From Ardenticatenales bacterium (GTDB lineage: Bacteria > Chloroflexota > Anaerolineae > Epilineales > Epilineaceae), in NCBI GenBank assembly GCA_020853525.1, contig JADYYS010000051.1, positions 1 to 43,427 on the forward strand: a DNA stretch of 43,427 nt, given 5' to 3'. Below are positions 4,849-40,115 of the stretch, piece by piece. How positions within the stretch are numbered: the stretch's first letter is position 1; each line of letters opens with the position of its first letter. The position numbers and the translations under genes were made by a program. The notes under the pieces are model-generated. The model ran no database searches and was not told the origin of the DNA. It saw only the letters and a list, made by a program, of their open reading frames with translations.

Positions 4849-5865
4849 TCATCGCGGATCGCGTGACCGGCGTCGGGTCGCACCGATGCCGCCGAGCAGG
4901 CCGAGCACGCTCGCGAGTGCGGCCAACGCGCCCGGTCCGAAGAGGTCGGCCAGGCCGCCGTCGGGCATCGTCGCCGGCCCGCCGGACGTCGCCGCCGCAT
5001 CCCCCGCGACGCCGCCCAACGCATCGCCGCCCGCCGAAGACGTCGTCGTCGCCGTATCGACCGCCGTCGTCGTCGTGACGGTTTCGGCGCCGGTCGCGGT
5101 CGTGGACGTCGTCGCCGTCGTCGCGCCGCCGGTCTGGCGACCACCCTTGCTCGACGGGCGAACGGCCTCCGTCGTGGCGAACGTCGTCGTCGCCGCTGCG
5201 GTCGATGTCGTGGACTCCGTTGCGGTGAGCGCCTCCGTGTCGTCGGCCGATGTCGGTGCCGTCACGGCGTCCGTTGCGGCAACCACGGCGTCGGCGGCAC
5301 CGGGCAGTGCGTTCGGCATTGCGTTCGGCAACGCGTTCGGCAGGGCCGCCTGCACGGCCGAGACGGCCTTGGCCAGCGCCTCGGCCAGCAGGCCGACCTC
5401 GGACGCGTCGAGACCGAAGCTCACACCTGAGAGTGTCTCACCCGCCACCGGCAGCGCGTCGTAGCCCGGGACGTCGAGCCCATCGGCGGTGCCGAGGAGG
5501 ACGGCCAGCGCCGACGTGTCGATCGCCACGTCGTAGCTGCCGGCGCCGAGCGCCGTGAACTGGTAGAGGCCGCGGCTGTCCGTGGCTGTCGTGTCGACGC
5601 CTTCCGGACCGAGGAGGCGGATCGGCACGCCGGCCACCGCCGACTCGCTCGGGCTGAACGCGCCGTCGCCGTCGGCATCGAAGTAGACGTAGCCCTGGAT
5701 CGCGCCGCCGGCGCCGGCCGTCGACGTGTCGGTGGCGGCCGACTGTCCCTTCTGGGCGTGGACCGCCGCCGGCGTGGCGACGGCGGCAAGGGCGAGGGCC
5801 GCGACGAGCGCGGCACGGGTGGCGCTGCGGGTGCGCGGGTCAATGTGGGCCGCAAGCGGATGCAT
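4849..5865 (-). CDS. Surface protein with SdrD-B-like domain and C-terminal anchor
   Basis: Exported 338-residue protein of unknown role. The start at 5865 is preferred over an in-frame ATG seven codons upstream because GAGGAG lies six bases before it. Residues 1-38 form a signal peptide ending around AVHAQ. Residues about 55-125 resemble an SdrD-B/Cna-B fold: GYVYFDADGDGAFSPSE has a calcium-loop look, followed by GVPIRLLG and DSRGLYQFTALGAGSYDV. Next come a short NALPNAMPNALP repeat and a long Thr/Ala-rich low-complexity stretch. The C terminus has a MPDGG-like motif, a hydrophobic helix and an RRRSR tail. That layout resembles a sortase-type or related sorting signal, although the motif is not a canonical LPxTG. 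No sortase is in the window. Confidence 0.75.
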   Translation of the reverse strand: MHPLAAHIDPRTRSATRAALVAALALAAVATPAAVHAQKGQSAATDTSTAGAGGAIQGYVYFDADGDGAFSPSESAVAGVPIRLLGPEGVDTTATDSRGLYQFTALGAGSYDVAIDTSALAVLLGTADGLDVPGYDALPVAGETLSGVSFGLDASEVGLLAEALAKAVSAVQAALPNALPNAMPNALPGAADAVVAATDAVTAPTSADDTEALTATESTTSTAAATTTFATTEAVRPSSKGGRQTGGATTATTSTTATGAETVTTTTAVDTATTTSSAGGDALGGVAGDAAATSGGPATMPDGGLADLFGPGALAALASVLGLLGGIGATRRRSRDPR

Positions 5866-5889
5866 CAGACGCTCCTCGTCGTACACGGT

Positions 5890-5915
5890 GCCGCCGACAA
5901 CACGATGTCGGCGGC
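5890..5915 (-). terminator. Perfect GC-rich hairpin between aspS and the surface-protein gene
   Basis: A perfect 10-bp stem (5890-5899 with 5906-5915) closes a six-base loop. It lies about 58 bases past the aspS stop and about 25 bases upstream of the next gene. There is no T-tract after it, so it could end the aspS transcript, protect an mRNA end, or be a leader structure of the downstream gene. Confidence 0.35.
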
Positions 5916-15783: not shown

Positions 15784-18132
15784 CTACCGCCCCGCCAACC
15801 GCACGACATACGGCACATACGCCTTCCCCGGGTCCACATGTACCGCTTCGCCCGTCACCGTCACCGTGACGCGTTGCGGGCTGCCGGTGATCGTCGCGTC
15901 GGCGCTGGCGATCGTCAGGACGCCGGTGGCCTCGCTTGCCGGCAGCCGCCGGGCATCGACGGTCAGGGTGACGACGGCGGGGAACGCGCCGCCGGCGGGC
16001 GTGACGGTCAGCCACGGCACGTCGGCCGTGGCGGTGAAGGCGGCGCAGCGCGCGGCGTCGGGCATGTGGCCGACGAGGACACGCAGCGGCGTGAGGGCGG
16101 CGCGGTCGACGGTGAGGGCGGTGGGGGTGACGGCCAGGCGGGCAGCCAGCGGCTCGGGCTGCGGGCCGGCGTCCGCGGCGTCGATCGGCGTGCCGAGGTA
16201 GGCCGAGGCGATGTCGGGCGGCGCGTCGGCCAGATCGAGCCAAGCCGGGCGGCGGAGTTCGACCATCGCCGCCACCGCGCCCTCCAGGACGCGCACGACG
16301 GCCGCGTCGGCGCCGTGGGCCACGCCGGGCAGGTCGCGGACATCGACGAGGATCCGCTGGCGGGCGTCGATCGTCCGCAGCAGCGTGCCGGCGTAGCCGC
16401 AAGCGGGCGCGTACGTATCGATCGCGATGCGCGCGGTTTGCGTCAACGGGTTCTGGACGGCGATTCGGCCGCCGAACGTGTCCGTCATCGTGCCCGTCAG
16501 GGCGATTGGGGCGGCCGCCGGGTCGTCGGGCGAGGCGACGGCCGGGCCGCCGAGGTCGGGCAGGCCGATGAAGCGCGGCGCGGTCGAGGTCCAGTCGGCC
16601 CAGTCGAACGACCACGTGCGCACGCCCCAGCCCTCGATCGGCACGGGCACGTCGCGCGCCTCGCGCCAGCTGTGGACGGCGATGGACAGCGGCAGCGCCA
16701 GGGGCACCGCCGCGAACATCTCGCCCCATCCGTCGCCGCCGGGCTTGCCGAGTCCGAAGCCGGGCTGGAGGACGGTCTGCACCCGCGGCACCAGCGGGTA
16801 GCCGAACTCGCGCCGCGGCTCACCCTCGGCCTGCATCCGGTTCGCCAGCTCCAGGCGCTCGGCGTACGGGTTGAAGACCGGGATATTCGTCTCCCAACCC
16901 TGCGCGCGATCGGTCGGGTCCTGCGCGAGCGACAGCACGCCGTCGGCCATGAAGTTCACCTTCTCCTGATAGCCGAGCGGCATGAGCTGGCGCAGCCCGG
17001 GCGACGGGAGCGGGGCGGTGGGCATGCGGATGGCGGGGACGGTGTAGCTGAGGTTGCGACCCCCGTTGGGGCCGAAGACGGTGAGGGCGGCGGCGAGCGG
17101 GCGATCGCTCACGAGACGAACAGTGGCCGAGCCGTTCACGTCGGCAAAGGCCTCGACGCTGTCGAGATCGAAGCCGTCGAGCGCGCCCGCTTTGAGGGTA
17201 TGGGTGTACACGCCGCGCAGGCCGTTGCTCGTCCGATAGGCCGAGACGACGACCGTCGCACAGGCGCCCGCCGGGTTGAACAGGCGGACGGCACTCGACA
17301 GCCCATCCGGGCTCCGGATCCAGGCGCCCGGAAGGTCGTAGACGAAGCGCGCGCGCGGTCCGCCGTCTTCCGACGGCGGTGCCCAGCCCGTGTCCGCGAG
17401 GCCGAGCGCTTCGAAATGATCCACCGATCCTCCGCCCGCGGAGCGCGCCGCGCCCAGCTGCTCGATCACGCCGCCGATCGGCTCGCCGCGCGCCATGGCC
17501 GCGTCGAGGCCGTTCGGTAGGGCGTCGGTGGCACCGCCGCGCACGAACGCGTCCATGAACGCCGTACCCGGACATGCCGGCGCACCGGCCGATGGTCGCC
17601 AGCGTGCCAAGTGCGCGCAGACGACGTCGGCGACGGTCGCATCGGTCCCCAAGCCTTCCGCGACGGCCGCATCGACCCATGCCGCGTCGACGTCCGCCGC
17701 GCGCCGCTCGCTGAGGCTAAGGACGGCAACGGTTGCCGAAACGCGCCACGTGGCGCCGGGCGCCAGCGTGCCGCTGCACAGCGTCCGCGTCAGAAAACAG
17801 CGCTCGCATGACCCCGCATCGGAAGCGAACGGCCACGCGTCGAGCGAGAGCAACCGCGTCGGCTCATCGCCGAGGTTCTGTGCGACGAGACCGCCCTGTC
17901 CGCGCTTCACGATCTGTGTAATGGTGATCCCGTCACGAACCTTGGCGACCCAAATGTCCGGCGGGCCGGGATCGAACAAGACGCGCCCGGTCGCAGCGGG
18001 TGCCGGCTGCGCCAGAGGCGCTGCGACCACGGCGTCCCCGCCCCATCGCGCACCGAGGGTGGCCAACGCGCTGCCGGCCACGGTGAGGACGGCGAGGGCG
18101 ACGGTGGTCGCCACGACCCTGGATGCGTTCAT
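15784..18132 (-). CDS. Secreted protein with C-terminal BACON-like domain
   Basis: A 782-residue exported protein. The start at 18132 is chosen for AAGGAG six bases upstream and the signal peptide that follows (MNASRVVATTVALAVLTVAG). The long middle part (about 50-620) has no motif I can name, though it reads as beta-rich extracellular sequence. Near the C terminus LAVTPTALTV, then VPWLTVTPAGGAFPAVVTLTVD and a following VTVTVTG, match the pattern of BACON or related Ig-like domains, often linked to carbohydrate or mucin binding. The last residues, AYVPYVVRLAGR, are the Chloroflexota-type hydrophobic terminal motif. It follows the bactofilin gene on the same strand after 218 bases. The substrate or partner is unknown. 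Confidence 0.75.
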   Translation of the reverse strand: MNASRVVATTVALAVLTVAGSALATLGARWGGDAVVAAPLAQPAPAATGRVLFDPGPPDIWVAKVRDGITITQIVKRGQGGLVAQNLGDEPTRLLSLDAWPFASDAGSCERCFLTRTLCSGTLAPGATWRVSATVAVLSLSERRAADVDAAWVDAAVAEGLGTDATVADVVCAHLARWRPSAGAPACPGTAFMDAFVRGGATDALPNGLDAAMARGEPIGGVIEQLGAARSAGGGSVDHFEALGLADTGWAPPSEDGGPRARFVYDLPGAWIRSPDGLSSAVRLFNPAGACATVVVSAYRTSNGLRGVYTHTLKAGALDGFDLDSVEAFADVNGSATVRLVSDRPLAAALTVFGPNGGRNLSYTVPAIRMPTAPLPSPGLRQLMPLGYQEKVNFMADGVLSLAQDPTDRAQGWETNIPVFNPYAERLELANRMQAEGEPRREFGYPLVPRVQTVLQPGFGLGKPGGDGWGEMFAAVPLALPLSIAVHSWREARDVPVPIEGWGVRTWSFDWADWTSTAPRFIGLPDLGGPAVASPDDPAAAPIALTGTMTDTFGGRIAVQNPLTQTARIAIDTYAPACGYAGTLLRTIDARQRILVDVRDLPGVAHGADAAVVRVLEGAVAAMVELRRPAWLDLADAPPDIASAYLGTPIDAADAGPQPEPLAARLAVTPTALTVDRAALTPLRVLVGHMPDAARCAAFTATADVPWLTVTPAGGAFPAVVTLTVDARRLPASEATGVLTIASADATITGSPQRVTVTVTGEAVHVDPGKAYVPYVVRLAGR

Positions 18133-18215
18133 CACGTTCTCCTTGATGCGCCATGAAACAGCAGCGGTGCGGCGGTGCGGTGGAGCCGAAACGCCCGGTG
18201 ATGGACGGGCGATCG

Positions 18216-18246
18216 CCGGGACGGAGCCGGGGCTCCGCGGTCCCGG
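18216..18246 (-). terminator. GC-rich hairpin downstream of the bactofilin gene
   Basis: CCGGGAC (18216-18222) pairs with GTCCCGG (18240-18246), with an inner GGAGCC/GGCTCC stem. It lies about 105 bases past the bactofilin stop and about 85 before the next gene. There is no T-tract, so termination is uncertain. Confidence 0.3.
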
Positions 18247-18350
18247 GGAGGGGCGGGATGTCGCAGTGGCGTCCTGTCGACATGGGAACGATGACGCGGG
18301 GCGGCACGAATCGGATATGGCGCCCGGATGTCGCGCGCAGCCGGGTGGCG

Positions 18351-19196
18351 TCAGCGCCGTCGGTTCCCGCCCGCGCGCCGGGTGCGGCGCGCGCCGTCCG
18401 CACCGGCCGCGGCGGCCTGCGGCTGATGGGCGGCACCGGAGGCCGAGCCGGCAGCGGTGTCGGGGATGATGGGTTCGATGTCGAGGGCGAAGCCCAGGAC
18501 CGACTCGACGCGCGGCGCGGATGGGGCCGATGAAGTCGCGGGTGGGGCCGACGTCGACGCGGAGCGCGGCGGGCCGTCGGCCTGCACGTCGGCCTGCACG
18601 TCGGCGCGGGGCGGGCGCTCGGGGGCGGGCGAGGCAACGCGGCGCACCGGCGGCGGGGCGGGCGGCGCGGTCTCCGGAGGCGCCGAAGCCGGAGGGTCGT
18701 CCACCCGATCGACGGTGGGCGCCGGGCCGAGGTCGATGATCACGTCGTCGACCCCCGACGAGGCGTCCGCCCCACCCGCTGCGCCGGACGCAAGGTGCGG
18801 CGGCTGGGCGACGGGTGGCGGAAGCACGGGCATGGCAGAGCGCATCCGGCTGGCGCCTTGGAACACACCGCCCTGGTCGATCATGATCGCGTCCGCCACG
18901 ATGTCGCCGACGACCTGACCGGTCGCCAGGATCTCGAGCCGCCCGCCGCACTCGACGTTTCCGGTGACGGTGCCGCCGACGGTGATGTTGCGGGCACGAA
19001 GGACGTCGACCTGGACGACGCCCGACTCGCCGACGACGACGTTGCCGGCGACGTCGATGTGGCCCTCGAAGTGGCCGTCGATGCGGACCCCGCCGTCGCT
19101 CCGGATCACGCCCGACAGGGATGTGCTGACTCCGACCGCGCTCTCGAGCAGTTCGCCGCGCCGGGTGGTTCGGTCACCGCGTGTGAACCACGCCAT
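18351..19196 (-). CDS. Bactofilin
   Basis: A 281-residue cytoskeletal polymer-forming protein of the bactofilin (DUF583) family. Residues about 25-120 have the regular beta-helix pattern (SGVIRSDGGVRIDGHFEGHIDVAG, then VVVGESGVVQVDV, ITVGGTVTGNV, LEILATGQVVGDIVADAI). Bactofilins assemble into filaments at the inner membrane and commonly scaffold murein hydrolases. The M23 peptidase gene immediately upstream fits that. The remaining 150 residues are a Pro/Ala-rich disordered tail with a small 12-base tandem repeat (from about 18577) encoding a repeated DVQA. GGGAG lies seven bases before the start. The 73-bp palindromic element ends 26 bases upstream of the start codon and may act on this gene. 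Confidence 0.92.
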   Translation of the reverse strand: MAWFTRGDRTTRRGELLESAVGVSTSLSGVIRSDGGVRIDGHFEGHIDVAGNVVVGESGVVQVDVLRARNITVGGTVTGNVECGGRLEILATGQVVGDIVADAIMIDQGGVFQGASRMRSAMPVLPPPVAQPPHLASGAAGGADASSGVDDVIIDLGPAPTVDRVDDPPASAPPETAPPAPPPVRRVASPAPERPPRADVQADVQADGPPRSASTSAPPATSSAPSAPRVESVLGFALDIEPIIPDTAAGSASGAAHQPQAAAAGADGARRTRRAGGNRRR

Positions 19197-19222
19197 ATCG
19201 TTCTCCCTCAGTTGGCCACGGC

Positions 19223-19297
19223 TAGTACTCTGTCACTGGACACGCTTCGGATATCCGACAGAGGTAGTTATCCGCAGACTCTGCAGTGACAGTGTAC
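19223..19297. repeat. 73-bp covarying palindromic element, copy 1
   Basis: Outer arms 19225-19238 and 19284-19297 pair at 13 of 14 positions. An inner stem pairs 19248-19253 with 19269-19274 perfectly. The flank CTA precedes the left GTAC, as in copy 2. Conserved single-stranded-looking blocks are CACTGGACA after the left arm and TCTGCAGTG at the right arm. Copy 2 at 21015-21087 has exactly the same length. The element lies between the M23 gene's 3' end and the bactofilin gene's 5' end, in the latter's probable leader. Confidence 0.8.
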
Positions 19298-19332
19298 TCG
19301 TGCGCCGTACTCGTGCGCCGTACTAGTGCGCC
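19294..19332. repeat. Three 13-bp tandem repeats at the M23 gene stop
   Basis: GTACTCGTGCGCC occurs at 19294-19306 and 19307-19319, then as GTACTAGTGCGCC at 19320-19332. The first unit shares GTAC with the right end of the 73-bp element. The third unit contains the stop codon of the M23 gene (19323-19325). Confidence 0.85.
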
Positions 19333-20354
19333 GCTTCCGGCGCACCGTGGTCCATGAACGGTCGGGGGTCGAGCGCGGTCCCGTTGTGCCAGACTTCGTA
19401 GTGCAGGTGCGGTCCGGTCGAGTTGCCGCTGCTCCCGGACAGGCCAACCGCCGCGCCCGGCGTAACGGCATCGCCCAGCTGGACAAGCGTGCTCGAGAGG
19501 TGGGCGTACAGCGTGGCGTAGCCTTGGCCGTGTTGGACGAGCACGCACCAGCCGTAGCCCGGCTGCCAACCGCTCCCGACGACCGTCCCGTCGCCGGTGG
19601 CGGCCACCGGCGAGCCGTACGGCATGCCGATGTCGATACCCGAATGGTGGTTCGGCTTGCCGCGGAACTCCCGCCAGCCGAACGGGCTCGTCACTTCGCC
19701 GCGGACCGGCCAGTTGGCGGGCAGGCGACCGCCGTCCGGCGGGGGCGGCATGCCGCGCGTCACCGCCTGACGCCACGCGCCCCCTTTGGACTGGCCCCAG
19801 AGTGCGTACACATCGGACAGCGCCCAGCCGAGGCGCTCTCGGGCCAGCGCCAGCCGGTCCTCCAACGTCACGGATGCATCGAACGGACCGCCTTCGCCGC
19901 CGGCGGACGGGGACGAGAAGCCGGGCAGCGAAGGCGCGCCGGCCGACGGGGGCGTCGGCGTCGGCGTCGGGAGGCCGAGCTCGGTGCGCAGCTGGTCGTG
20001 CAGAAAGGCGATGCCGTCGAGCTGCATCTCCACGGCATCGACCTGCTGGCGCAGCGTGTTCGTCTCGCCCTCGGCCTCGTACAGCTCTTTGTTCTTGCGC
20101 GCCGCGGCGCCGGTCAAGAGCTGCACGCGCGCCTCCGTCGTGTCCCGCTCCAGCGTGAGGTTGGCCACCTCCTGCCTGAGCGCACGATTGGCCTGCGAGA
20201 CGTTGACCAAGCCCGCCACCAGCGCGAAGGCCGCCAAGCCGAGCACGGGGACGAGGACACGCGGGACGGCCACCATGACCGCCGCGCGGGCGGTGGGGCC
20301 GTTCGGATTCGCCACGTTCAAACACCCATTTCCGGGGCAGCCACGCGGCGACAC
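19323..20354 (-). CDS. M23-family murein endopeptidase, membrane anchored
   Basis: A 343-residue zinc metallopeptidase expected to cut peptidoglycan cross-bridges. A hydrophobic helix (about 27-48) anchors it, followed by a coiled coil (about 50-115) and a Pro-rich linker. The LytM domain occupies roughly 210-335. Metal ligands are visible: His237 and Asp241 in HHSGIDIG, and the HxH pair His316/His318 in HLHYEVW. The start is uncertain. A GTG at 20354 has no good ribosome site, and later GTG/ATG codons (for example 20276) are possible; a promoter lies just upstream. With the bactofilin gene downstream it forms the common bactofilin-peptidase pair. Its stop lies in a tandem repeat adjoining the palindromic element. 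Confidence 0.9.
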   Translation of the reverse strand: MSPRGCPGNGCLNVANPNGPTARAAVMVAVPRVLVPVLGLAAFALVAGLVNVSQANRALRQEVANLTLERDTTEARVQLLTGAAARKNKELYEAEGETNTLRQQVDAVEMQLDGIAFLHDQLRTELGLPTPTPTPPSAGAPSLPGFSSPSAGGEGGPFDASVTLEDRLALARERLGWALSDVYALWGQSKGGAWRQAVTRGMPPPPDGGRLPANWPVRGEVTSPFGWREFRGKPNHHSGIDIGMPYGSPVAATGDGTVVGSGWQPGYGWCVLVQHGQGYATLYAHLSSTLVQLGDAVTPGAAVGLSGSSGNSTGPHLHYEVWHNGTALDPRPFMDHGAPEAAH

Positions 20355-20387
20355 GAGGGCGGTCGCCGCAATCGGGATAGCCGCGAC

Positions 20388-20416
20388 AGTATACGGGTCG
20401 CGGCGCGGGGTGCCAA
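20388..20416 (-). promoter_or_regulatory. Sigma70-type promoter for the M23 peptidase gene
   Basis: On the minus strand, TTGGCA (20411-20416) and TATACT (20388-20393) are separated by exactly 17 bases. Transcription would start near 20381, only about 27 bases before the GTG at 20354. Confidence 0.65.
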
Positions 20417-20435
20417 GAGGGTCAGCCCCGAGGCG

Positions 20436-20972
20436 TCAATCGTCCTCTCCTCGACCGATCGCCCGCTGCTCCTCCGCCGACAGCGCATACGGCGACCCGC
20501 CGCCCTGCACCGGCTTGGCGTATACGCGCAGCCCGCTGCGCGTGTAGAGCGCCGTGAGCACGATCCCGTTGTCGGCCGCGTCGAGCAGCGCCAGCGAGAA
20601 GCTCTGCTGGTTGTCGCTGGCATCCACGGCACTGTAGCGCTCGAGGCGAACGTGTTGAACGGCCTGGTTAAGCCGGGTCGACGTTGCCCGCCCTTGGTCG
20701 CCGACCTGTGAGCTGCGCCGCTCCACGGCGTTCAACCGTTCGACGTACGACTCGACGGCCCGCGTCAGGCTCTGCCCCTCGACGCCGCGCATGAGCGTGC
20801 CGTAGTGCCGGGCCATCCGTCGCGCGCGCACCCACGTCATCGTCGCGAAGACGAACGTGAGCACCGCCAGCACGAGCGCCGTGAGGGCGACGGCGGCCAA
20901 GGCGGCAGGGTCGAGGCGGCCGAGGGGTGCGAGCCAGTCAGGGATCGTCCATTGCGGGGCGGTGGGCGGCAT
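20436..20972 (-). CDS. DUF4446 family membrane protein
   Basis: A 178-residue protein with one N-terminal membrane helix (about 25-45), a helical middle part (HYGTLMRGVEGQSLTRAVESYVERL) and the typical DUF4446 C-terminal half: VRLERYSAVDASDNQQSFSL, ALLDAADNGIVLT, YAKPVQGGGSPYALSAEEQRAI. The family is widespread in Gram-positive and Chloroflexota genomes and often lies near chromosome-partition or envelope genes; its function is not established. Its ribosome site is weak. The second 73-bp palindromic element ends 40 bases upstream of its start, in the divergent region shared with the glutaminyl cyclase genes. Confidence 0.88.
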   Translation of the reverse strand: MPPTAPQWTIPDWLAPLGRLDPAALAAVALTALVLAVLTFVFATMTWVRARRMARHYGTLMRGVEGQSLTRAVESYVERLNAVERRSSQVGDQGRATSTRLNQAVQHVRLERYSAVDASDNQQSFSLALLDAADNGIVLTALYTRSGLRVYAKPVQGGGSPYALSAEEQRAIGRGEDD

Positions 20973-21012
20973 GTGGGCATCCGGCGGTTGGGGCGGGAGC
21001 GGGCGCGCATTC

Positions 21013-21087
21013 TAGTACACCACCACTGGACATGCTCGGGGTTGCGGCCAGCGTACGGAACCCGGAGAGTCTGCAGTGGTGGTGTAC
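21013..21087. repeat. 73-bp covarying palindromic element, copy 2
   Basis: Outer arms 21015-21028 and 21074-21087 are a perfect 14-bp inverted repeat. An inner stem pairs 21039-21043 with 21059-21063. It matches copy 1 at about 49 of 73 positions with no length difference, and the stems differ by paired changes. It sits between the divergent DUF4446 and glutaminyl cyclase genes, 40 bases upstream of the former's start. Confidence 0.8.
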
Positions 21088-21142
21088 GAGCCCGTATTCC
21101 TTCGGACCGCCGCCCGACAGCCCGACAGCCCGGCGCACGGCC

Positions 21143-21148
21143 TATAAT
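21143..21148 (+). promoter_or_regulatory. Minus-10 box for the glutaminyl cyclase pair
   Basis: A perfect TATAAT on the plus strand, about 38 bases before the first cyclase start, which itself has GTGGAGG as ribosome site. The -35 region at the expected distance is GCCCGA, a poor match. Confidence 0.45.
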
Positions 21149-21185
21149 CCCCTCCACCCCATCCAACGACATCGTGGAGGCCTCC

Positions 21186-22115
21186 ATGGCGATCCCGTTC
21201 GCACGATGCGCAGCGCCGGCGGCCGCGGCGGGCTTGGCGCTTGCGCTCGCCGGTTGTCTGTCCACGCGTTCATCGACGCTGCCGCCGGGTGCCGCTTCGC
21301 CCGATCCCGCGGCCGGCGCCACGACACCGGCCGACGTGGCCGATACCGGGCCGGCATCGGCCGCCCCGCCCGCCAACCGTCTCGTCCCGATCGTCCTCGC
21401 CGCCTACCCGCACGACCCCGCCGCGTTCACGCAGGGGTTCCTGCTGGACGGCGGCACGCTCTTCGAGAGCACGGGCCTCGAGGGCCGGTCGACGTTGCGC
21501 GAGGTCGACCTCGCGAGCGGCAACGTCGTGCGGCGCCACGACGTCCCGCCCGACGTGTTTGCCGAGGGTCTGGCGTTGGTCGACGACACGCTCTACCAGC
21601 TGTCGTGGCAGGAAGAGCGCGCGTTTGTCTACGATCGGTCGACGCTCGCGCTGAAGGAGGAGCTCAGCTACGACGGCGAAGGCTGGGGGCTGTGCCACGA
21701 CGGGCAGCGGTTGGTCATGTCGAACGGCTCCGACCGGCTGACGTTTCGGGATCCGGCATCGTTTGCACCGACCGGCAACGTGGCCGTCACGCTCGACGGC
21801 ACGTCGCTGCCGATGCTCAACGAGCTGGAGTGCGTCGGGGACCGCGTGTATGCCAACATCTGGCAGACGAACCTCATCGTGGCGATCGACCCGTCCGACG
21901 GCCGCGTCACGGACGTGATCGACGCGTCGTCGCTGCAGCACGAACTGACGGACCGCGATGTGACGCTGCCGATCGATGTCCTGAACGGCATCGCGTTCGA
22001 CCCGGCGGACGAGACGTTCCTTCTCACCGGCAAGCTCTGGCCGAAGGTGTTCCGCGTGCGCTTCGCTCCGGCGGTGGCCCCGACGGTTCCGACGCCGGGC
22101 GCGCCGGCGCCATGA
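21186..22115 (+). CDS. Glutaminyl-peptide cyclotransferase-like lipoprotein (first of pair)
   Basis: A 309-residue exported protein of the plant/bacterial-type glutaminyl cyclase family (Glu_cyclase_2 beta-propeller). These enzymes convert N-terminal glutamine to pyroglutamate. The start follows GTGGAGG. Cys24 in the lipobox LAGC makes it a probable lipoprotein. Family signatures run through the chain: YPHDPAAFTQGFLLDGGTLFESTGLEG, FAEGLALVDDTLYQLSW, YDGEGWGLCHDGQRLVMSNGSD-like sequence, and LNELECVGDRVYANIWQTN. The next gene overlaps it by ATGA and encodes a paralogue, so the two are cotranslated. Which exported proteins it modifies is unknown. Confidence 0.9.
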   Translation: MAIPFARCAAPAAAAGLALALAGCLSTRSSTLPPGAASPDPAAGATTPADVADTGPASAAPPANRLVPIVLAAYPHDPAAFTQGFLLDGGTLFESTGLEGRSTLREVDLASGNVVRRHDVPPDVFAEGLALVDDTLYQLSWQEERAFVYDRSTLALKEELSYDGEGWGLCHDGQRLVMSNGSDRLTFRDPASFAPTGNVAVTLDGTSLPMLNELECVGDRVYANIWQTNLIVAIDPSDGRVTDVIDASSLQHELTDRDVTLPIDVLNGIAFDPADETFLLTGKLWPKVFRVRFAPAVAPTVPTPGAPAP

Positions 22116-23122
22116 GCCGCCCGGTCGTTGGCGCCGGCCGCACCGCCGCCGTTCACACGGCCGCCGCACGCATCGCCGCCATCGGCGCGCTCCTCGTCAC
22201 CGCGCACTTCGCCGCAGCGCCGACGCCCACGGCCGCCGCACCGACCCGGCCGAACCGCGCCGCCCAGTTCCCGACCCCCCGGGCCATGACGGTCGAGGTG
22301 CTGGCGACGCATCCACACGACCGGACGGCCTACACGCAAGGGTTGGTGTGGGAGGACGGCACGCTGTGGGAGAGCACCGGGCTGAACGGTCAGTCGACCC
22401 TGCGGCGCGTCGAGCCGGCGACGGGCGCCGTGCTGCAGCAGCGCGACATCGGCGCGGCGCACTTCGCCGAAGGGCTGGCGCGCGTCGGCGACCGGCTGAT
22501 TCAGCTGACGTGGCGGACGGGCAAGGCGTTCATCTGGGACAAACGTTCGTTCGAGCTGCTCGGCGAGATCGCCTACGGGGGCGAGGGCTGGGGGCTGTGC
22601 CACAACGGCACGGACCTCATCATGAGCGACGGCTCCGACACGCTTTTCGTCCGCGACGCGACGACGTTCGCGATCAAGGATCGCGTGCCGGTGCAGATCG
22701 CCGGCGAGCCGCTGGCCAACCTGAACGAGCTCGAGTGCGTCGGCGACACGGTCTACGCGAACGTCTGGCGCGAGACGTTCATCGTCAGGATCGATCCGGC
22801 AACCGGCGACGTGACCGAACGGATCGACGGCGCGGTTCTCGACAGCGCGATCCGCGCCAAATACGGGTTCCACGACCCGTACGACTGCCTGAACGGGATC
22901 GCCCACGTCCCCGAGGACGATCGCTTCCTCGTCACGGGCAAGCACTGGCCCGAGCTGTACGAGGTGCGGTTTCGGGCAATAGAAGGCGAGCCGACGGGCA
23001 CAGCATCGCCGAGCGGAACATCGAGCGCGACGTCGCTGCCGACCGTAACGGCAACCGCGACGAAGACACCGCCGCGGCGTTGGGTGATCCACCTGCCGTG
23101 GTCCGCACGATCCCGCCGGTAG
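22112..23122 (+). CDS. Glutaminyl-peptide cyclotransferase-like protein (second of pair)
   Basis: A 336-residue paralogue of the preceding gene; the ATG overlaps its TGA. The N terminus is a normal-looking signal sequence (hydrophobic stretch at about 20-42) without a lipobox, so this copy should be soluble or differently anchored. The same family blocks recur: THPHDRTAYTQGLVWEDGTL, FAEGLARVGDRLIQLTW, GGEGWGLCHNGTDLIMSDGS and LNELECVGDTVYANVW. A Ser/Thr/Pro linker leads to a C-terminal RRWVIHLPWSARSRR, a variant of the hydrophobic motif of Chloroflexota exported proteins. The pair probably arose by tandem duplication and then diverged in cell location. Confidence 0.9.
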   Translation: MSRPVVGAGRTAAVHTAAARIAAIGALLVTAHFAAAPTPTAAAPTRPNRAAQFPTPRAMTVEVLATHPHDRTAYTQGLVWEDGTLWESTGLNGQSTLRRVEPATGAVLQQRDIGAAHFAEGLARVGDRLIQLTWRTGKAFIWDKRSFELLGEIAYGGEGWGLCHNGTDLIMSDGSDTLFVRDATTFAIKDRVPVQIAGEPLANLNELECVGDTVYANVWRETFIVRIDPATGDVTERIDGAVLDSAIRAKYGFHDPYDCLNGIAHVPEDDRFLVTGKHWPELYEVRFRAIEGEPTGTASPSGTSSATSLPTVTATATKTPPRRWVIHLPWSARSRR

Positions 23123-39973: not shown

Positions 39974-40115
39974 CGGGCGGCTGAAGCCGGCCCGCTGAAG
40001 GCATCCCTGACGGGCTGCCATGGTGCCCGCCTTCGCGGGCACCCAGAGGTTGGAGGCGCCCGCGAAGGCGGGCGCAATGGCCGAAGGCCTCCAACCGGCC
40101 AGCTTCAGCTGCCGG
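39974..40115. repeat. 142-bp inverted-repeat element, copy B
   Basis: This copy lies between the convergent MFS and sulfatase genes, in reverse orientation to copy A. Its ends are 39974-39996 and 40093-40115. Perfect inner hairpins are at 40022-40043 (9-bp stem) and 40056-40075 (8-bp stem). Its length is exactly that of copy A, and the two align without gaps over the core. The hairpins could act as a two-way transcript end, but no T-tract is present. Confidence 0.8.

Follow-up and report, generated by a model that had tools for sequence, protein, structure and literature searches.

A dispersed 79-bp palindromic element with CTAG ends, probably mobile, in the genome of an Ardenticatenales bacterium

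The palindromic MITEs of the NEMIS/Correia and RUP types are folded and non-coding, lie next to genes, are transcribed with them, and use a TA target and IS630-type enzymes. MITEPsy1 is 100 nt long and has 18-nt inverted repeats (PMC3189936). With regard to REP sequences, the bulge of the E. coli REP hairpin matters for recognition, the cleavage site of TnpA-REP is at CT (or CA), and in one system a changed GTAG foot changes the site of cutting (PMC8266576). REPs and comparable hairpins are believed to serve as terminators or as mRNA stabilisers (PMC3733652).

The window analysed here is the whole stretch of 43,427 nucleotides of contig JADYYS010000051.1 of an Ardenticatenales bacterium (assembly GCA_020853525.1). 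An earlier note, made from the letters alone, had described in it two folded 73-bp copies of one element. Both were present as described, with 73 nt between GTAC termini (19225-19297 and 21015-21087) and an identity of 49/73, and both folded on the plus strand well above dinucleotide shuffles (z values below). The homologous unit is longer, 79 nt with the CTAG ends included, and its consensus ends are CTAGTAC...GTACTAG; the right ends of the two window copies are CTCG and CGAG, not CTAG. The pattern CACTGGACA..TCTGCAGTG had two matches in the window versus 0.00 expected. The distances given earlier to the bactofilin gene (26 bp) and to the DUF4446 gene (40 bp) were correct, and both genes were confirmed by Pfam. 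The features are as follows.

19222..19300, plus strand: copy 1 of the 79-bp palindromic element, subfamily A (CTAGTACTCTGTCACTGGACA...TCTGCAGTGACAGTGTACTCG); covariance-model match 91.5 bits, E 1.1e-23 over 97 kb; fold z -2.9.
21012..21090, plus strand: copy 2, subfamily B (CTAGTACACCACCACTGGACA...TCTGCAGTGGTGGTGTACGAG); covariance-model match 94.1 bits, E 2.1e-24; fold z -4.2.
18351..19196, minus strand: bactofilin gene, downstream of copy 1 (PF04519, E 6.7e-22).
19323..20354, minus strand: M23 peptidase gene, between the two copies (PF01551, E 5e-34).
20436..20972, minus strand: DUF4446 gene, downstream of copy 2 (PF14584, E 1.7e-37).
19323..19326, minus strand: CTAG holding the TAG stop of the M23 peptidase gene, putative insertion target of copy 1; in a same-family genome the orthologous stop lies in one single CTAG and the element is absent.
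19294..19333, no strand: 13-bp tandem duplication GTACTmGTGCGCC, 3.1 copies, across the right junction of copy 1 (Tandem Repeats Finder, 96% matches).

Short tandem duplications (13-17 bp) across element-host junctions were also observed at loci L017, L048 and L011.

The element is very probably transposable but non-autonomous: a 79-bp palindrome of the MITE/REPIN-like kind, specific to this lineage, which folds into a long hairpin and depends on an enzyme acting in trans to bring it to CTAG sites. This degree of confidence covers its mobility and leaves the enzyme aside. Mobility is based on about 69 dispersed copies, on subfamilies including a very young one, on CTAG ends, on CTAGs common to neighbouring elements, on the coincidence with TAG stops and on one element-free site. 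A degenerate pattern detected 29 copies in the genome (none with the reversed-pattern control), 28 of which were used to build a covariance model. This model gave 107 strand-specific matches, corresponding to 69 places in the 4.27-Mb genome, a lower bound with 150 of the 1906 first-look candidates scored. Sequence outside the window was taken from loci and from the surroundings of the elements. Copies were dispersed and in both orientations, and they show the features of MITEs: short, non-coding, with terminal inverted repeats (17 bp) and many dispersed copies. The covariance model found zero copies in 40 relatives, two of them from the same family and none from the same genus. A pattern scan of about 85,000 GTDB species returned two matches only, both in Photobacterium and at about the estimated chance level, and a scan of viral contigs returned none. 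The family thus appears to be lineage-specific as far as genome collections reach.

At least three sequence subfamilies were distinguished: A (CTCTGTCACTGG...), B (CNCCACCACTGG...) and C. Subfamily C comprises four identical and two near-identical copies, and has therefore spread recently. The blocks CACTG(G/A)ACA and TCTGCAGTG are conserved across the family, and stem mismatches recur at fixed places (18/62, 20/60 and 23/57).

The statistics of covariation were computed on 28 copies, in which 87% of cells were paired versus 83% in shuffles. Cells changed on both sides numbered 51 versus 22 in shuffles, a value reached by 0 of 500 shuffles, and covariation was above slid controls as well. Within the 79-nt unit it was concentrated in the outer-stem pairs 8/72, 10/70, 11/69 and 12/68. 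Of these, 10/70, 11/69 and 12/68 correspond to the paired changes reported earlier at 7/67, 8/66 and 9/65. The covariation also reported for the inner stem was unsupported across the family: pair 30/50 (formerly 27/47) varies mostly on one side, and pair 32/48 (formerly 29/45) is paired in just 27% of copies. On a tree made without the columns of the four covarying pairs, for which few columns remained and counts are rough, 14 double compensatory changes fell on these four outer pairs and about four on all other pairs, and pair-breaking single changes were frequent everywhere. The idea that the folded form is selected holds for the paired ends in the source lineages that spread and fails for resident copies, which lose pairs singly. 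This is the pattern to be expected if paired ends are needed for spreading and not after insertion. The paired outer-stem changes would be no less expected from a transposase that has to recognise both ends.

CTAG is depleted in this DNA, with 5 occurrences in the window versus 32 expected. It was found at both ends in 21 of the 69 copies, with no longer direct repeat outside. One CTAG is common to adjacent copies at C50:19987/20063 and at C26:65306/65381, and one is likewise common to the element and to a second repeat family at their junctions. In 28 of the 69 copies a neighbouring gene takes its in-frame TAG stop from the terminal CTAG. Counted over CTAG ends, 29 of 70 lay at the TAG stop of a coding-like frame (frame counts 3/29/0), versus 22 of 119 for other CTAGs in the same loci (Fisher p 0.001). 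Since other CTAGs already coincide with stops at this rate, much of the overlap is due to CTAG targeting itself. Among the ends at stop codons, 21 were right ends and 8 were left ends (p about 0.02), despite the balanced orientation of genes overall.

An element-free site was found in related genomes. Two of them, G001 and G002, have the same gene order, DUF4446 - M23 - bactofilin, and lack the element. In G001, of the same family, the M23 gene ends in GGGCGC-TAG, with a single CTAG located 29 nt before the bactofilin start; the flanking proteins of this site are only about 43-54% identical. In the genome studied here the end of the M23 gene reads GCGGCGCAC-TAG; after it come, in this order, the 13-bp duplications, the element, a CTAG and a further 25 nt.

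The reading put forward in the earlier note, a cis-acting leader RNA or operator of envelope genes, is very improbable. Both window copies do fold strongly, an envelope-related gene begins 26-40 bp downstream of each, and copy 1, between two co-oriented genes, is probably transcribed. Against a regulator, the copies lie beside unrelated genes in mixed context, the gene ends facing a copy being 62 3' ends versus 50 5' ends, so that 5' ends are not favoured; orientation relative to flanking genes is balanced overall (54 versus 58). The covariance-model search, which the earlier note had proposed as a check, returned many dispersed copies with intact termini and in both orientations, a result that on the earlier note's own terms speaks for a mobile repeat. 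Pairing decays in resident copies, the element is missing from the orthologous M23-bactofilin junctions of both related genomes, and no Rfam family matched positions 17000-23000 at E<=1. Of the three roles once proposed, the small mobile palindrome alone is supported, and the leader RNA and the operator are set aside by the dispersed copies, both orientations and mixed context. Some copies could have been co-opted locally after insertion as terminators or mRNA stabilisers, in line with the position of many copies directly behind stop codons; the loss of pairing in old copies makes this unlikely. A structure seemingly selected as RNA is in this case very probably the footprint of a mobile element.

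The second palindromic repeat family of the genome is about 230 bp long and occupies about 40 places, many of its copies being near-identical. Its ends are CTNG-TA(G/C)nCCGTCAC and a REPIN-like core lies in its middle. Examples are C14:9043-9279 and C24:27959-28184; positions 1-160 and 40007-40115 of the window hold the core only.

40007..40115, minus strand: REPIN-like core of the second repeat family, without CTAG-type ends; 92% match to the long repeat; inverted repeat I3.

Both sides of an IS200-like Y1 transposase gene (C9) are flanked by this core (L076:4600-4735 and 5770-5915). In 10 of 11 complete near-identical copies the terminal tetranucleotides of the long repeat are unfit for exact duplication, which is difficult to square with ordinary target duplication. 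The long repeat was used as support for a Y1 enzyme, although a different enzyme may move it. Many contigs of the assembly end in this repeat. Contig-end copies were considered as ends of a larger insertion sequence and this was ruled out, the contigs breaking in the second near-identical palindromic repeat. CTAGTAC-type ends were, all but a few, in hairpin copies or at contig ends, and a search of the 76-contig draft assembly for an autonomous element with such ends recognised none.

With the element taken as mobile, its enzyme would recognise the folded or paired ends, would cut at CTAG and would insert the element leaving CTAG on each side, so that a target in a stop codon would keep its TAG and the next gene its ribosome-binding region. 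The candidate is a REP-associated tyrosine transposase (RAYT) of the HUH/Y1 type, whose substrate would be the hairpin in single-stranded DNA. That a Y1 enzyme moves the element is about an even call, slightly favoured over a DDE transposase. The genome has at least five Y1-type genes. One of them, intact and RAYT-like (C59:59073-59570), matches NF047646 at E 5e-18, below the cut-off of that model, and a young copy of the element lies 280 bp downstream of it, on one side only; this is the one case of adjacency for the RAYT association, and the chance that some Y1 gene of the five adjoins a copy that closely is estimated at about 9%. The loci of the remaining four Y1 genes contained no copy; the genes on contigs C6 and C47 carry GTAG or related palindromes, and that on C8 none as strong. 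Palindromes beside 29 RAYT relatives were mostly of the GTAGGGGC type and none was like this element. By analogy, the fixed stem mismatches resemble those of E. coli REPs and may be counted for Y1, and a CTAG foot cut at CT could, speculatively, fit the behaviour of TnpA-REP. It is doubtful that a RAYT-like single-strand transposase uses here a CTAG foot in place of GTAG, aiming hairpin elements at CTAG; if true, such a foot in a G+C-rich, CTAG-depleted genome would provide safe homing onto TAG stops, which are restored on insertion. The opposing explanation of this step, which leaves mobility untouched, is that the MITE owes its movement to a DDE transposase, with duplication of CTAG or of the central TA, as in IS630-type or CTAG-targeting MITEs, covariation then being the matching of two terminal inverted repeats. 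It is tentative and rather less probable than not: CTAG on both sides of 21 copies and common CTAGs at junctions look like ordinary target duplication, MITEPsy1 is reported to duplicate CTAG or YTAA (PMC3189936), and paired changes lie in the terminal 12 positions; against it, the domains of IS630 (DDE_3, PF13358) and IS701-type (DDE_5, PF13546) transposases, the two DDE domains searched for, were absent from the genome (0 matches), the search for an autonomous element with such ends was negative, and the long-repeat ends fail to match exact duplication in 10 of 11 copies.

Palindromes of the GTAGGGGC type were also observed inside RAYT-like coding regions, in the linker separating the HUH and tyrosine motifs, at L187:1175-1984 (C6 of this genome), L162, L163, L167, L168, L174 and L177. 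In the C6 gene two REPINs of 71-75 bp lie in frame.

Finding paired changes between two copies of the same genome is not enough to infer a functional RNA. The element is a palindromic repeat of the ordinary MITE/REPIN-like kind whose choice of target is unusually neat, and it exemplifies harm avoidance, since in a genome poor in CTAG such targets are often stop codons, restored by the insertion.

Compared with the REPIN/BIME-RAYT systems (REPtrons), the element shares small, palindromic, high-copy, species-specific intergenic repeats in subfamilies with an irregular hairpin, and RAYT-like genes in the genome, one adjoining a young copy and others with GTAG or REPIN-type palindromes. It differs in its CTAGTAC ends, known REPs having a GTAG/GTGG foot 5' of the hairpin, in halves that form no separate hairpins, and in strong CTAG targeting. 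With TIRtrons and their TIRYT genes (Di Nocera et al. 2013, PMC3733652) it shares tyrosine transposase genes and moderately abundant families of long inverted repeats unrelated to GTAG, but those repeats flank the gene and here a copy lies on one side only. CTAG-targeting MITEs such as MITEPsy1 are similar in length (about 80-100 bp), in terminal inverted repeats of 17-18 bp and in CTAG at both ends, whereas here no related DDE transposase was found, the whole element is one hairpin and the sequence is unrelated. Like NEMIS/Correia and RUP, the element is folded, non-coding and gene-adjacent, but its target is CTAG and DDE_3 is lacking in its genome. It belongs, as a new case, with well-known repeats and not with gene-control RNAs.
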